Assembly (NCBI GenBank): GCA_031292555.1
Contig: JARLGV010000030.1
Coordinates: 1-64,000 of the forward strand
DNA: 64,000 bases
Reading direction: 5' to 3'
From: Fimbriimonas sp.
GTDB lineage: Bacteria; Armatimonadota; Fimbriimonadia; Fimbriimonadales; Fimbriimonadaceae
Both the position numbers and the translations under genes were made by a program. The notes under the pieces are model-generated. The model was not told the origin of the DNA. It saw nothing but the letters and a program-made list of their open reading frames with translations, and did not search any database. Numbering within the stretch: position 1 is the first letter of the stretch; each line of letters begins with the position of its first letter. This document shows, piece after piece, positions 1,315-6,579 of this stretch.

Positions 1315-1379
1315 ATCGGGTAGGCGGGTCGCCCCGCCCCCCACACCACCCTGCATGCGGGTCCGCACAGGGCGGTTCA
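1315..1379 (-). ncRNA. Group II intron domains V and VI
   Basis: Domain V (1379-1344) folds as ACCGCCCTG pairing with CAGGGTGGT (one G-U), a bulge, and a TGCG/CGCA stem with GACC loop. This gives the 34-nt catalytic hairpin with a CGC rather than AGC triad. Domain VI (about 1343-1315) pairs GGGCGGG with CCCGCC and leaves a bulged A seven nucleotides from the 3' terminal GAT, the expected branch-point position. Both fit a splicing-competent intron core. Confidence 0.85.
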
Positions 1380-2744
1380 CAAGGATGCGAGCCGGCGTTT
1401 GTGGTCCAGTAGCGAGGTTAACCCAGCCTTGGTGATTTGTGAGTTATTGATGCAGCGTTCGACGCATCGGTGACCGGCCGCGCGCCAGGCGCTTCGGGTC
1501 CACATGGTCTTGCGTGCCTGCTCCTCAGGGATTCCGGCGCGGATCAGGTGTGTATACCGCCGGTAAGGCGTTTTCCACTGAACCCAAAGCCATTGCCGTA
1601 CCCGACGACGAACCCACCAATCCAGTTTTTCAAGCTGTTCCTTGCCAGTCGCAACGCGTGCGTAGTAGCCCGCCCAGCCCGTCATGTAACGGTTGAGGTC
1701 GTCGATGAAATTCCTCGACGGAATGCGACGCACCCGAGAGCTTCGTTTTCGAATCTCGTCCTTGAAACGCTTTAGCGATTTGTCCGAGATCGTTATGAAA
1801 GCTCCTTTGGCGTATCGACAGATCGTGAATCCCAGAAACTTGCGCTCCGACACTTGGGCGGATGCGCTTTTCAAGCGGTTCACCTTTAGCCGAAGCTTCA
1901 CCTCCAAAAAGTTGGTTGCCGTTTCCAGAACACGGGCCGCCGCACGTTGGGAGCCGACGTAGATGTTGCAGTCGTCCGCGTACCGCACAAAGTGCAGGCC
2001 GCGCCGCTCCAATTCCTTGTCGAAGTCATCCAAGAGAGCATTGGCCAATAGGGGAGATAACGGTCCGCCCTGCGGCGTCCCCTCCTCCGTATCCATAACC
2101 ACTCCGTTGAGCATGACCCCCGAATTTAGAAACCGACGGATCAGCTTCAGCACACGCTTGTCTGAAATCCGCAGCGCCAATCGGGACATGAGAACGTCAT
2201 GGTTCACCCGGTCGAAGAATCGTTCCAGATCCAGGTCCACCACCCAGTCCAACCCGGACGCCACATACTCTCTAGCCTTCTTCACCGCATCATGAGCGGA
2301 TCGGTTTGGCCGGAAGCCATAGCTCGAATCGGAAAACAAGGCTTCGTACCTCGGTTCCAAAACAATGAGCAGCATCTGCTGCACAACCCGGTCCACCACC
2401 GTCGGGACGCCGAGATCGCGCTCGCCGCCGCCAGGTTTTGGGATCGTCACACGTCTCACCGGTCTCGGGATGTAATCCCCGCAGACCAGAACACGACAAA
2501 CCTTCTCGCCGTGAGAGCGCCAGAAGGCGTCCAAATCGCGAACGGTCATCCCGTCCACCCCAGGAGAACCTCCGTTTGCCTTCACGCGCGAGATCGCTTC
2601 GGACACCACATCCGGCCTTACGGCGACGGTCATGAGGTCCTCCTCGGCAGACCCTCCAACTTTGTGAACCTCCGCCGACATCGCCGGATCTTCGAACAGG
2701 TTGCCCTGAGCGAACGGATCTAGGCGGTTTCGAGAGCGACTCAC
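1377..2744 (-). CDS. ltrA: Group II intron reverse transcriptase/maturase
   Basis: A 455-residue protein combining reverse transcriptase and maturase functions for splicing and target-primed mobility of the intron. Visible RT blocks are KANGGSPGVDGMTV (RT0/1), SYGFRPNRSAHDAV, VVDLDLERFFDRVNHD, GTPQGGPLSPLLAN (about residue 224) and the catalytic YADD (about 255-258). The X/maturase region (FIDDLNRYMTGWAGYY) follows. The protein ends shortly after it, with no Cys-rich HNH endonuclease domain. I chose the GTG at 2744 because AAGGAG lies about 11 nt upstream; ATG at 2681 is an alternative. The TGA stop is the first part of domain V. No frameshift is seen, so the element may be active. Confidence 0.92.
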   Translation of the reverse strand: MSRSRNRLDPFAQGNLFEDPAMSAEVHKVGGSAEEDLMTVAVRPDVVSEAISRVKANGGSPGVDGMTVRDLDAFWRSHGEKVCRVLVCGDYIPRPVRRVTIPKPGGGERDLGVPTVVDRVVQQMLLIVLEPRYEALFSDSSYGFRPNRSAHDAVKKAREYVASGLDWVVDLDLERFFDRVNHDVLMSRLALRISDKRVLKLIRRFLNSGVMLNGVVMDTEEGTPQGGPLSPLLANALLDDFDKELERRGLHFVRYADDCNIYVGSQRAAARVLETATNFLEVKLRLKVNRLKSASAQVSERKFLGFTICRYAKGAFITISDKSLKRFKDEIRKRSSRVRRIPSRNFIDDLNRYMTGWAGYYARVATGKEQLEKLDWWVRRRVRQWLWVQWKTPYRRYTHLIRAGIPEEQARKTMWTRSAWRAAGHRCVERCINNSQITKAGLTSLLDHKRRLASL

Positions 2745-3094
2745 CTGGGGATCTTCTCCTTGTGTTCGGCCCTTCCTCCAACTGTGCGAAGTACTATGGC
2801 CTCTGCTGACTTCCCAGGCAAGCCTGGGATCTCCAGGAATAAGCGGGCGTGCTTTCGATGCGCAAACGCTGGATCTACACAAAGCCGGGTGTTCGGAAAA
2901 GAGATTTCAGCGTAATAGGGCGCCTCATCTTCCGCCATGTGCCTCATATCCAGTTTCTGTTCGTCGTCTCGCATCTGTGACTCTGGCTTCCTTCAGACCA
3001 TCCCTTGCGGGAAAGCCCTTGCCTTTGCTACCGGCCCCTTTTCCAAGGCCGTAGGGGACTTGCACCCCCGAGCAACGCCGCGTGTCCTGCGTAC

Positions 3095-3363: not shown

Positions 3364-4296
3364 CTACCGGGGCAGTTTGCCCTTTTTCTCGATGACGGGG
3401 GCGATCTCTTCGGCGAAGGTGACGATGTCCGTACAAATGAAGTCGGCTCCCGCGGCCATGAACTCCTGACGATGCCGCCCGGCGCAACAGCCTCCCACTC
3501 CGATGGCGAAGCAATTCTCCTTGCACCTCGTTTCGCCTAGCGAACGAATGAGGCTTAGGCCGCTTTCCAATCCGTCTTCCGCCTTGCAGCTTAGGAGGAC
3601 CATGTTTGGCCGGTGCTGAGCGACTTGGCTTAGGAAGCAAGACTGGGGAACGTTGGCGCCAAGGAAAAGGGTCTTCCATCCGCGAACTCGTAGGTAGTCG
3701 GAGACCATCCGAAGGCCAATGGTGTGCCAGGAATTCGGACCGCAGCCAAGTACGGCAACCTTGTCAGTCTGTTTGGAAGTAGCGAAAACCTGAACGATCC
3801 GCGCCATCATTCGCTCGGTGATCGCGCTTGCCATGTGCTCCTGGGCGGCGTCGATTGTCTGCTCGCCGTACCAGGCGCCCACATTGCGCATAACGGGCAC
3901 GATCAACTTCTGATAGATGTCGACGATGGAGGCGTTCGCAGCGAAGAGCTTGTCAAGGGTTTCGGAGCACGTGGTTTCATCGCCCTGCACTGCGGCGTTG
4001 CCATAGAGAACGACCGCTTCCTCGAATGAGATGTCCGTTGACTTGATTCGTCGTGCCAGAGCCGCCGCGATAACGGTTTCGACTTCTGGGTTCGCGATGG
4101 AGTAATAGACCTCGCGCCCGTTCTTGGTGGCTCTAAGAATGCCCTTGCCTCGCATTCGCGCCAAGTGGCTGGAGACGTTCGGCTGCTTCATTGCCGTGGC
4201 AGCCACGATCTCGCTGACGTTCCGAGGGCCATGCAGCAGCTCCGCCAAAATCTGGCGTCGCGATGTTTCCGCTAGCTCCTCGTAGACGTGTATCAT
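3364..4296 (-). CDS. ArsR-type HTH regulator fused to a cobalamin-binding (CarH-like) domain
   Basis: 310 residues. Residues 1-75 form an ArsR-family winged helix (ILAELLHGPRNVSEIVAA, QPNVSSHLARMRGKGIL, wing around KNGREVYYS). Residues 85-170 look like the helical B12-binding cap, with W142 and E153-H154 (CarH has W-x9-EH; here the spacing is one longer). Residues 178-300 are a Rossmann-like B12-binding domain with H191-T-I-G, the lower-ligand HxxG of CarH/MetH-like proteins. CarH and LitR use a MerR-type DNA-binding head, so the ArsR head is unusual. By analogy it would respond to adenosylcobalamin and possibly light; this is inference. It is divergently transcribed from an acyl-CoA dehydrogenase across 115 bp, the likeliest target. 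Start ATG has AGGAA just upstream. Confidence 0.85.
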   Translation of the reverse strand: MIHVYEELAETSRRQILAELLHGPRNVSEIVAATAMKQPNVSSHLARMRGKGILRATKNGREVYYSIANPEVETVIAAALARRIKSTDISFEEAVVLYGNAAVQGDETTCSETLDKLFAANASIVDIYQKLIVPVMRNVGAWYGEQTIDAAQEHMASAITERMMARIVQVFATSKQTDKVAVLGCGPNSWHTIGLRMVSDYLRVRGWKTLFLGANVPQSCFLSQVAQHRPNMVLLSCKAEDGLESGLSLIRSLGETRCKENCFAIGVGGCCAGRHRQEFMAAGADFICTDIVTFAEEIAPVIEKKGKLPR

Positions 4297-4411
4297 TGGC
4301 GGTTCCTAGAAGTAATACGTTGCATCGATAGAATTCGTCTGAGAGTCGCCAAGTAAACTCACTCCCCTGGTAACGAGGCCAGCAATTCTCAACGTAAGAG
4401 AGGTCGCATTC
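4297..4411. promoter_or_regulatory. Divergent promoter region with TACGTTG/CAACGTA inverted repeat
   Basis: The 115-bp gap between the divergent ArsR-B12 gene and the acyl-CoA dehydrogenase must hold both promoters. The heptamer TACGTTG at 4316-4322 recurs as its exact inverse CAACGTA at 4390-4396, each within about 20 bp of one start codon. They could be operator half-sites for the neighbouring regulator. With only one pair and wide spacing this is a suggestion. Confidence 0.35.
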
Positions 4412-5530
4412 ATGTTCATAGATGTTCACCCCGAAGAGGTCGCCTTCCTCAATCGAGTGAAGGATTTCGTGTCCCAAGAAGTCCTTCCCCATACCCGCGA
4501 ATGGGAACGCAACGCCGCATTCCCCGACGAAATATGGCCCAGGTTGGGCGAATTGGGACTCCTTGGACTCACCCTTTCGAAGAATAAAGGGGGCAGTGGT
4601 TCGTCCTGCCACCTGTACTGCCATGCCATCAAAGAAGTCGCTAAGGGCGATCCCGCGTTGGCCATGAACTTGTCGGCGATCAATGCGCTTTGCGTCGCAC
4701 ACTTCGAGCATTTCTCGAGCGACGAGCAGCGGGAAAGGTACGCCCAAGGAGTCGTCAGCGGCCAGATCAAGATGGCCTGGGCTCTCACCGAGCCGGATGC
4801 CGGATCGGATGCCCGGCGAGTGAAGACGGTTGCCACGCCGATCGAAGGGAAGGCCGGGTTCTATCACCTCAACGGGCAGAAGATGTTCATCACCAACGGC
4901 GGAAAGGCGGACCTTATCGTCGTGGTCGCCCGAACTTCCGAAAAGGAACTGTCTGCTTTTCTAATGGAAACAGACCAGCCCGGCTTCCAGATTGAAAAGC
5001 GGATCACGACCGTTGGGGTCAGCGCGTCCAACACCGTGCAATTCTCCCTGAAAGACGCGATTGGCTGGCATACTCCTTGCACGTTTGAGGAAGCGATCGG
5101 CCTGCTCTATCGCGGGCGGCTTGGCATCGCCGGAATGGCCGTCGGCATCGCCGAAAAGGCGTTTGAACTGACTTGCGACTATTCAAAGCAGCGAGAACAG
5201 TTCAATCGGCGGTTGGCCGATATGCAATCGGTTCAGAACATGATCGCCGACAGCGCGATGGAAATCGAGGCTTCGAACCTCCTCTTGGACAACGGGGCCC
5301 GCCGGTTCGATCTCGGGCTACCGATCATCAAAGAGTCCTCTTTTGCCAAGCTCTACGCAAGTGAAACGGCCAATCGAGTAACGAATCGGGCGATTCAAAT
5401 CCACGGAGGGCGTGGAATGACGCAGGAATTCCTCGTAGAGAAGCTTTGGCGCGATGCAAAGCTTACCGAGATCGGCGAGGGCTGCTCCGAAATCCAGCGG
5501 ATGGTGATCGCGAAACAAGTGCTACGATAA
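4412..5530 (+). CDS. Acyl-CoA dehydrogenase
   Basis: 372 residues, normal length for the FAD-dependent acyl-CoA dehydrogenase family (alpha,beta-desaturation of acyl-CoA, electrons to ETF). Seen are the N-terminal helical domain, the signature WALTEPDAGSDA, the FAD/substrate segment NGQKMFITNGG, the C-terminal QREQFNRRLADMQSVQNMIA and IQIHGGRGM. The EIGEGCSEIQR segment carries the Glu equivalent to the catalytic base of medium-chain enzymes. Chain-length preference cannot be read. It stands alone apart from the divergent ArsR-B12 regulator; no ETF, thiolase or hydratase genes adjoin. The ATG at 4412 gives the canonical N-terminus (MFIDVHPEEVAFLNRVKDFV). Confidence 0.93.
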   Translation: MFIDVHPEEVAFLNRVKDFVSQEVLPHTREWERNAAFPDEIWPRLGELGLLGLTLSKNKGGSGSSCHLYCHAIKEVAKGDPALAMNLSAINALCVAHFEHFSSDEQRERYAQGVVSGQIKMAWALTEPDAGSDARRVKTVATPIEGKAGFYHLNGQKMFITNGGKADLIVVVARTSEKELSAFLMETDQPGFQIEKRITTVGVSASNTVQFSLKDAIGWHTPCTFEEAIGLLYRGRLGIAGMAVGIAEKAFELTCDYSKQREQFNRRLADMQSVQNMIADSAMEIEASNLLLDNGARRFDLGLPIIKESSFAKLYASETANRVTNRAIQIHGGRGMTQEFLVEKLWRDAKLTEIGEGCSEIQRMVIAKQVLR

Positions 5531-5571: not shown

Positions 5572-6579
5572 TTGACCGTTCTTCCTTCGTTAATCGCACT
5601 TCTGAGCATCGTCAGTCCCCAGGCGGCCGATGCCCCTGTCTCCCTTGGTCGCGTGTTCGCTAAGTACGAGAAGTTGGCTTACGAAGTTCGGTCGAGCCTA
5701 AGCGCCCAGTCCCGAATGCGGGGGCTCGAAACCTGGATTCCTGAAGACTTCGACATGAACTACGATTTCACAACGTTTGTCGAAGATATGAAGGCGGACG
5801 GAATCGCCGTGTTGCACTACCAGCGCCCGGTGGTGCACCAGATCATTGGCGAGACATTCAATTCTCCTCCCAAGGAAAGCGACGAGAAGTTGAACCTGAA
5901 CGTACGCCTCACAGTCTCGCCAATCAACGAGATCCTTGAGGCTAAGGATCTGAACGAAAAGCCTTCGAAGGCGCCGAAGAAGCCGGACGGCGACTTTCTA
6001 CGGAACTTCGGTCAGCCCAGGCAGGAGTCGCTGGCCGGTGTCCTGACCCAGTTCATCTCCGAAGTCTTCAGATTGTCGCTGTTTGCCGGTTCGTTCGATT
6101 CTGCGCTGGATTTTGCTCCAAAGACGCCTTTCACACCGGTCAAGGTCGGAGAGACTTGGAAAAGGACAGTCGGCTACTCCCCCCAGAAACTGCAAGGGAA
6201 AGGGAACAAGCAGGCGGTTCAACGCTTGGATTACACCTACACTTACAAGGGAACTGTCGAAAACAACGGCAAGCAGTTTTATCGCGTTGAGGCTGCGCTG
6301 GATCTCAAGACGGATCTCGCCGACTTCGTGAACCAACTCGTCGAAATGAAACCGGACGACACCGGTCTCAAGAAGGTCCCCCTCACCATGAAGTCGAAGA
6401 TCCTCTTCGACCTAGACATGAAGACTCACCACACGGTCCTCGCTCAGGCAACCACCGAATCCGGATTCGCCATCTTTGTGACTCAATACCCTGACGACGC
6501 GGTTCAGGAAGAGAAGATCAAGGCGCACACAACTATGCGTCTCGTCGGCGACCGTGTCATTCCACCGACCAAGAAATAG
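5572..6579 (+). CDS. Hypothetical secreted protein, 335 aa
   Basis: Not recognised. It begins with TTG preceded by GAGGTG, giving a short hydrophobic leader (LPSLIALLSIVSPQAADA) that looks like a signal peptide. The mature part is hydrophilic, lysine- and threonine-rich, with alternating beta-type segments (FYRVEAALDLKTDL, KSKILFDLDMKTHHTVLAQA). This recalls periplasmic proteins built of antiparallel sheets, in the style of DUF6263-like or lipoprotein-carrier folds, but no motif proves that. It follows the acyl-CoA dehydrogenase by 41 nt in the same direction and may be co-transcribed. It converges on rsfS. Confidence 0.7.
   Translation: MTVLPSLIALLSIVSPQAADAPVSLGRVFAKYEKLAYEVRSSLSAQSRMRGLETWIPEDFDMNYDFTTFVEDMKADGIAVLHYQRPVVHQIIGETFNSPPKESDEKLNLNVRLTVSPINEILEAKDLNEKPSKAPKKPDGDFLRNFGQPRQESLAGVLTQFISEVFRLSLFAGSFDSALDFAPKTPFTPVKVGETWKRTVGYSPQKLQGKGNKQAVQRLDYTYTYKGTVENNGKQFYRVEAALDLKTDLADFVNQLVEMKPDDTGLKKVPLTMKSKILFDLDMKTHHTVLAQATTESGFAIFVTQYPDDAVQEEKIKAHTTMRLVGDRVIPPTKK

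Follow-up and report, generated by a model that had tools for sequence, protein, structure and literature searches.

The window, i.e. the whole 64,000-nucleotide stretch of Fimbriimonas sp. DNA analysed here, encodes on its reverse strand a 310-aa regulator that is divergent from a gene for an acyl-CoA dehydrogenase (ACAD). The features concerned are the following:

3364-4296, reverse strand: ArsR-B12 regulator, 310 aa, ATG start (HTH_5, B12-binding_2 and B12-binding; AlphaFold pLDDT 91.7)
4135-4263, reverse strand: ArsR-type winged helix, HTH_5 match at residues 12-54 (Pfam)
3799-3999, reverse strand: four-helix-bundle cap, B12-binding_2, residues 100-166, with G140, W142, Y143, G144 and E153-H154 (Pfam, alignments)
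3433-3756, reverse strand: Rossmann-type cobalamin domain, B12-binding, residues 181-288, with H191, G194, G213ANVP217 and G268G269 (Pfam)
4297-4411, no strand: divergent intergenic region between regulator and ACAD
4310-4333, no strand: degenerate counterpart of the family operator, AAGTAATACGTTGCATCGATAGAA, scores of 1.9 and 0.7-3.7 in two scorings (relatives reach 12-23)
4350-4359, forward strand: putative -10-like element of the ACAD promoter, CAAGTAAACT, recognised by eye
4412-5530, forward strand: ACAD, conserved divergent neighbour (Pfam, synteny)
5572-6579, forward strand: uncharacterised 335-aa protein after ACAD, without a Pfam family, syntenic in most Fimbriimonadaceae

Directly downstream of the regulator lies a group II intron (1315-3014, reverse strand; matches to RF02001, RF01998 and RF00029) with a reverse transcriptase/maturase ORF (1377-2882), at the place where relatives often have a FadB-type gene.

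An earlier note on this DNA had described the regulator as an ArsR-style winged-helix head fused to a cobalamin module with an HxxG motif, and the profile search that it proposed bore this out. HTH_5 (ArsR; residues 12-54, E = 9e-10), B12-binding_2 (residues 100-166, E = 2e-13) and B12-binding (residues 181-288, E = 3e-14) were all matched above the curated Pfam cut-offs, and the head also passed the NCBIfam cut-off of HTH_metalloreg / NF033788, i.e. an ArsR winged helix-turn-helix (wHTH). Neither Pfam nor NCBIfam gave a match to a MerR-type N-terminal HTH in the regulator, and the CarH model of NCBIfam matched it weakly, exclusively over sensor residues 123-273. The regulator has no biliverdin-binding domain and no further Pfam match, the protein ending after the B12 domain.

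The AlphaFold model, built with 27 family sequences (pLDDT 91.7), recovered the B12-type fold. Structural neighbours of the sensor (residues 85-310) were found with Foldseek and scored with VIA-align: the highest Z-scores were obtained with photocobilins (26.4) and CtMerR (24.9), followed by MetH (22.6), a methylamine corrinoid protein (21.5) and CarH (20.6). In the ranking by profile, CtMerR (1e-29) and photocobilins (2e-26 and 5e-20) came ahead of the corrinoid protein MttC (1e-17) and CarH (4e-9). By profile and in the predicted structure, the sensor is thus closest to photoreceptors that use adenosylcobalamin (AdoCbl), and the comparison with CarH suggested in the earlier note puts photocobilins and CtMerR nearer than CarH itself. 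Both a cobalamin domain and its pocket were found, the best matches of the model over residues 85-310 being AdoCbl photoreceptor structures.

Residues E153-H154, H191, G194, G213, P217 and G268-G269 of this pocket are each kept in 51-53 of the 53 homologues, E153, H154, H191, G213 and P217 in 51-52 of them, and H191 is the predicted lower cobalt ligand. A W-x10-EH cap had been read from the sequence; its EH pair (E153-H154) stands, but the Trp register was one residue off. In CarH and CtMerR, nine residues separate the Trp from EH (W-x9-EH), and this Trp aligns with Y143 in profile alignments free of gaps, W142 being the residue that precedes this equivalent of CarH W131. The conserved Trp of photocobilins also falls on Y143 in profile alignments, so that the family motif is [Y/W]-x9-EH, with Y in 36, W in 12 and F in 2 of the 53 homologues. 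The position of CarH H132 is occupied by G144 in the window protein and is variable across the family, without a conserved counterpart. Among the four motifs of the published light signature (GxxW, EH, GxxH and GxxxP; PMC11796333), the window protein has two, EH and GxxxP, with GxxY and NxxH in place of GxxW and GxxH; all four are present in 8 of the 53 homologues.

The survey of related genomes recommended in the earlier note showed the ArsR-B12 fusion to be a conserved family of Armatimonadota. A full-length relative was present in 24 of the 61 near-relative genomes searched, all in one family. Across the phylum, 63 of 291 genomes gave a match in an alignment search, mostly over the full length, in the same family and several others. 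In a scan of genome contigs, which reaches close relatives only, matches were confined to Armatimonadota, and among plasmids no relative of full length turned up. In a maximum-likelihood tree built from the B12 modules, whose detail is limited by a short trimmed alignment and two divergent rows (L093, L094), CarH sequences are united in a single clade (98.4/100), and almost all ArsR-B12 modules cluster with photocobilins (98.7/97), separate from CarH. Because the B12 module sits outside the MerR-CarH clade and beside photocobilins, the simplest reading is that the ArsR-B12 fusion arose independently of MerR-CarH, and the tree thereby supports the independent evolution that had been suspected. 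The same genome also encodes, separately, its own canonical MerR-type CarH homologue (L002; G000:C27, L116). This gene adjoins LacI, cytochrome b and cytochrome bd-like genes, and no carotenoid gene was found among its six scanned neighbours.

As far as characterised proteins are concerned, the earlier note is right that known B12/light regulators of this kind have a MerR head: to our knowledge, it is by such a head that the characterised B12 light or vitamin switches contact DNA. CarH / LitR class I proteins share with the regulator a one-component layout (DNA-binding head, B12-binding_2, B12-binding) and the conserved E-H and lower-ligand His, whereas they differ from it by the MerR head in place of ArsR, by W131 and H132 in place of Y143 and G144, and by B12 modules in separate clades. 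CtMerR (Chloracidobacterium; PDB 8JBS/8JBT), the best profile match of the sensor, is likewise without an equivalent of H132 but has a MerR-type head and keeps a Trp at the W131 position. Photocobilins (SasPcob, AbDPcob; PDB 8J2W/8J2X/8J2Y), which are the best structural match and the tree neighbours of the B12 module, differ in carrying a biliverdin-binding globin-like domain and in lacking a wHTH head. ArsR/SmtB repressors (PagR, BigR, CmtR and others) resemble the regulator in their wHTH head and in a palindromic operator overlapping the promoter, but have metal or thiol ligands in the head instead of a cobalamin-module sensor.

The divergent ACAD gene had been put forward as a candidate target. 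As a conserved neighbour it stands, since it was found in 33 of 42 Fimbriimonadaceae loci (in one, at 1 kb with an intervening gene), most of which also have the 335-aa protein next to ACAD. Downstream, 16 of the ACAD-linked loci have a 3-hydroxyacyl-CoA dehydrogenase/hydratase fusion and 8 have ETF genes; these counts (33/42, 16 and 8) were made by reading the locus listing. Elsewhere in the phylum, other families conserve the regulator beside different neighbours and without ACAD. As a target, ACAD is less well supported, the operator evidence pointing to the promoter of the regulator and to a gene for an ECF sigma factor. On the ACAD side of the intergenic region, relatives show -10-like elements similar to that of the window (GTAAAAT, GTAGAAT, GTACAAT) at about the same promoter position, and no operator conserved there beyond this element was found.

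Many relatives have a 24-bp palindrome, ATATATCA-n8-TGATATAT, upstream of the regulator. A de novo search for palindromic motifs in 28 regulator-ACAD intergenic regions returned ATAtATCActgnncagTGATaTAT with a log-likelihood of 107, against 44-51 for five dinucleotide-shuffled control sets. Sixteen of the 28 regions score at least 12, mostly at 15-18 bp from the regulator start, and the position of the operator tracks this start and not that of ACAD. At locus L047 the operator is ATACATCAGCATTGACTGATGTAT, with the perfect inverted repeat ATACATCAGcattgaCTGATGTAT. The mismatch-free consensus occurs four times in about 9 Mb (genomes G015, G018 and G001), three times at the regulator locus. Upstream of the regulator, operators are found in further families of the phylum as well (scores of 20.3 at L084 and 18.5 at L087). 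The site of the window (4310-4333) lies as far from the start of the regulator as the strong sites in relatives do. Because it is degenerate, autoregulation may have been lost in this species. At position 43, in the recognition helix, the window lineage has Ser/Thr where Asn is found elsewhere; this difference was weighed as a cause of the weak operator beside the regulator and discarded, since those genomes retain a strong consensus site at the sigma gene.

Two genome-wide operator matches from different genera both lie upstream of the same ECF sigma-factor gene. The upstream regions of its orthologs were scored with a matrix learned from regulator-ACAD sites only, without sigma-factor sequences. 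In a first set, which includes both genomes where the sigma gene was first noticed, scores were 14.4-23.8 in all 23 regulator-positive genomes and at most 3.2 in the four negatives. In a held-out set, 10 of 11 regulator-positive genomes score at least 13.6 and one 9.9, the nine negatives reaching at most 9.8. With a threshold of 12, the sigma-gene operator is therefore present in 33 of 34 regulator-positive and 0 of 13 regulator-negative genomes (Fisher test, P = 1e-10 overall and 1e-4 held-out, values that overstate independence as the genomes are kin). Two matches to a 44%-identical paralog (in G036, positive, and G035, negative), neither of which has the site, were left out of these counts. 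Even within one genus, G163 has the regulator and the site and G033 has neither. In the genome of the window, the site is ATAGATCAATGGAGACTGATATAA (L183:1361-1384, equal to G000:C100:25725-25748). Its right half continues into an extended -10 element, TGATATAAT, which operators of other genomes likewise abut. An exact scan for WTATCA-n8-TGATAW in seven genomes gave eight matches, six of them at the sigma gene. The predicted operator and both putative targets (the regulator's own promoter and the ECF sigma gene) are thus well supported by comparative genomics. The remaining genome-wide matches concern unrelated genes without a cross-genome pattern and were not retained as targets. In two genera, the gene after that for the ECF sigma factor encodes a small YjfB-motility-like protein (L163:3656-3856 and L168:2103-2315; the Pfam match was tested for the L163 copy only).

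We propose that the regulator is an AdoCbl-responsive one-component repressor of its own gene and of one ECF sigma-factor gene, a reading to which we give a probability of about 0.6. The ArsR-type wHTH, presumably as a dimer or higher oligomer, would bind the 24-bp palindrome ATATATCA-n8-TGATATAT at these two promoters, overlapping the extended -10 TGATATAAT at the sigma gene. The C-terminal module would hold AdoCbl between the helical cap (G140, Y143, E153-H154) and the Rossmann domain, whose H191 would be the lower cobalt ligand. Binding of AdoCbl is very probable, and the genome has methylmalonyl-CoA mutase genes and a cobalamin riboswitch. Occupancy of the operator would be set by the AdoCbl state, the AdoCbl form most likely repressing in the dark; repression is favoured with good confidence over activation because the operators overlap -10 regions. 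Green or blue light would then remove the adenosyl group and free the operator, and the sigma factor would be made, in parallel to LitR of Streptomyces, which works via the ECF sigma factor LitS encoded by litS (PMC12705666).

Light as the natural trigger has, in our estimate, barely better than even chances. CarH is a dark repressor as an AdoCbl tetramer and is released in the light, and the H132A variant of Thermus CarH mostly remains tetrameric in the light (PMC10442372), so that light release without a His at this position would need another route. Light is still possible without H132, because CtMerR, SasPcob and AbDPcob are light-responsive though they have no upper His (PMC10979010, PMC11796333). 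The Tyr at the adenosyl-stacking position could stand in for the Trp that 12 of 53 relatives have. The complete picture, i.e. an independently assembled Armatimonadota family of ArsR-headed B12 photoreceptors that would use light to switch an ECF sigma regulon, in convergence with LitR-LitS and with a Tyr-lined adenosyl pocket without bis-His ligation, is tentative and falls slightly short of an even chance.

The main rival to light is vitamin or redox sensing, in which the same regulator would act on the same targets in response to the availability, alkylation or redox state of AdoCbl. The replacement of Trp by Tyr above the adenosyl face, the absence of H132 and the use of AdoCbl in host metabolism are all consistent with such a signal, as is a distant relative (L088, genome G108) in which the ArsR-B12 gene and one for a class II (B12-dependent) ribonucleotide reductase are divergently arranged. 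However, the nearest modules are those of proven photoreceptors that also have no H132 (Arg in CtMerR, Gln in SasPcob and Tyr in AbDPcob, according to PMC11796333), the full light signature published there occurs in 8 of 53 homologues, and B12 genes were not found beside the operator. We consider a signal other than light rather unlikely. Control of the divergent ACAD and of the surrounding beta-oxidation genes as the main job of the regulator is possible, though unlikely, and less supported than the earlier note proposed. The conserved divergent arrangement, the 3-hydroxyacyl-CoA dehydrogenase fusion and the ETF genes argue for it, but the operator follows the regulator start instead of the ACAD start, the site in the window is degenerate although its genome has a strong one at the sigma gene, and other families keep the regulator without ACAD.

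Although the head exceeds the NCBIfam metalloregulator cut-off, an ordinary metal-sensing ArsR protein carrying a vestigial B12 domain is highly improbable, the B12 pocket residues being near-invariant in the family. Residues 1-85 contain no Cys and His at positions 3, 22 and 44 only; the head thus lacks metal sites built on Cys, as classical ArsR/SmtB proteins have them, which makes a classical metal sensor unlikely. Metal-binding Cys/His sites are absent from many ArsR proteins, and their absence excludes only a classical metal sensor.

For the AdoCbl-responsive repressor preferred here, what is new is the predicted palindromic operator of an ArsR-B12 regulator together with its predicted ECF sigma-gene target. 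No report of such a regulator was found among the open-access papers covered. Published mining has described B12 photosensory domains with 'HTH' outputs, ArsR not being named in the accessible part of that work (PMC11796333). ArsR-B12 members may sit unnamed in its network, because eight homologues carry the signature given there. If the proposal is true, an ArsR head on the same sensor would show the B12 photosensor to be a portable module, a B12-controlled regulon in a little-studied phylum would become directly testable, and green-light optogenetics would be offered a second scaffold.

In one relative (genome G012; L053:7938-8894, reverse strand), EH is replaced by YR and the lower-ligand His by Cys. 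This regulator is a probable B12-free variant, and its genome keeps the sigma-gene operator (score 18.1) despite these losses. Another head swap was observed in genome G046 (L115:6716-7627), where B12-binding_2 and B12-binding are followed by a C-terminal Cro/CI-type HTH.
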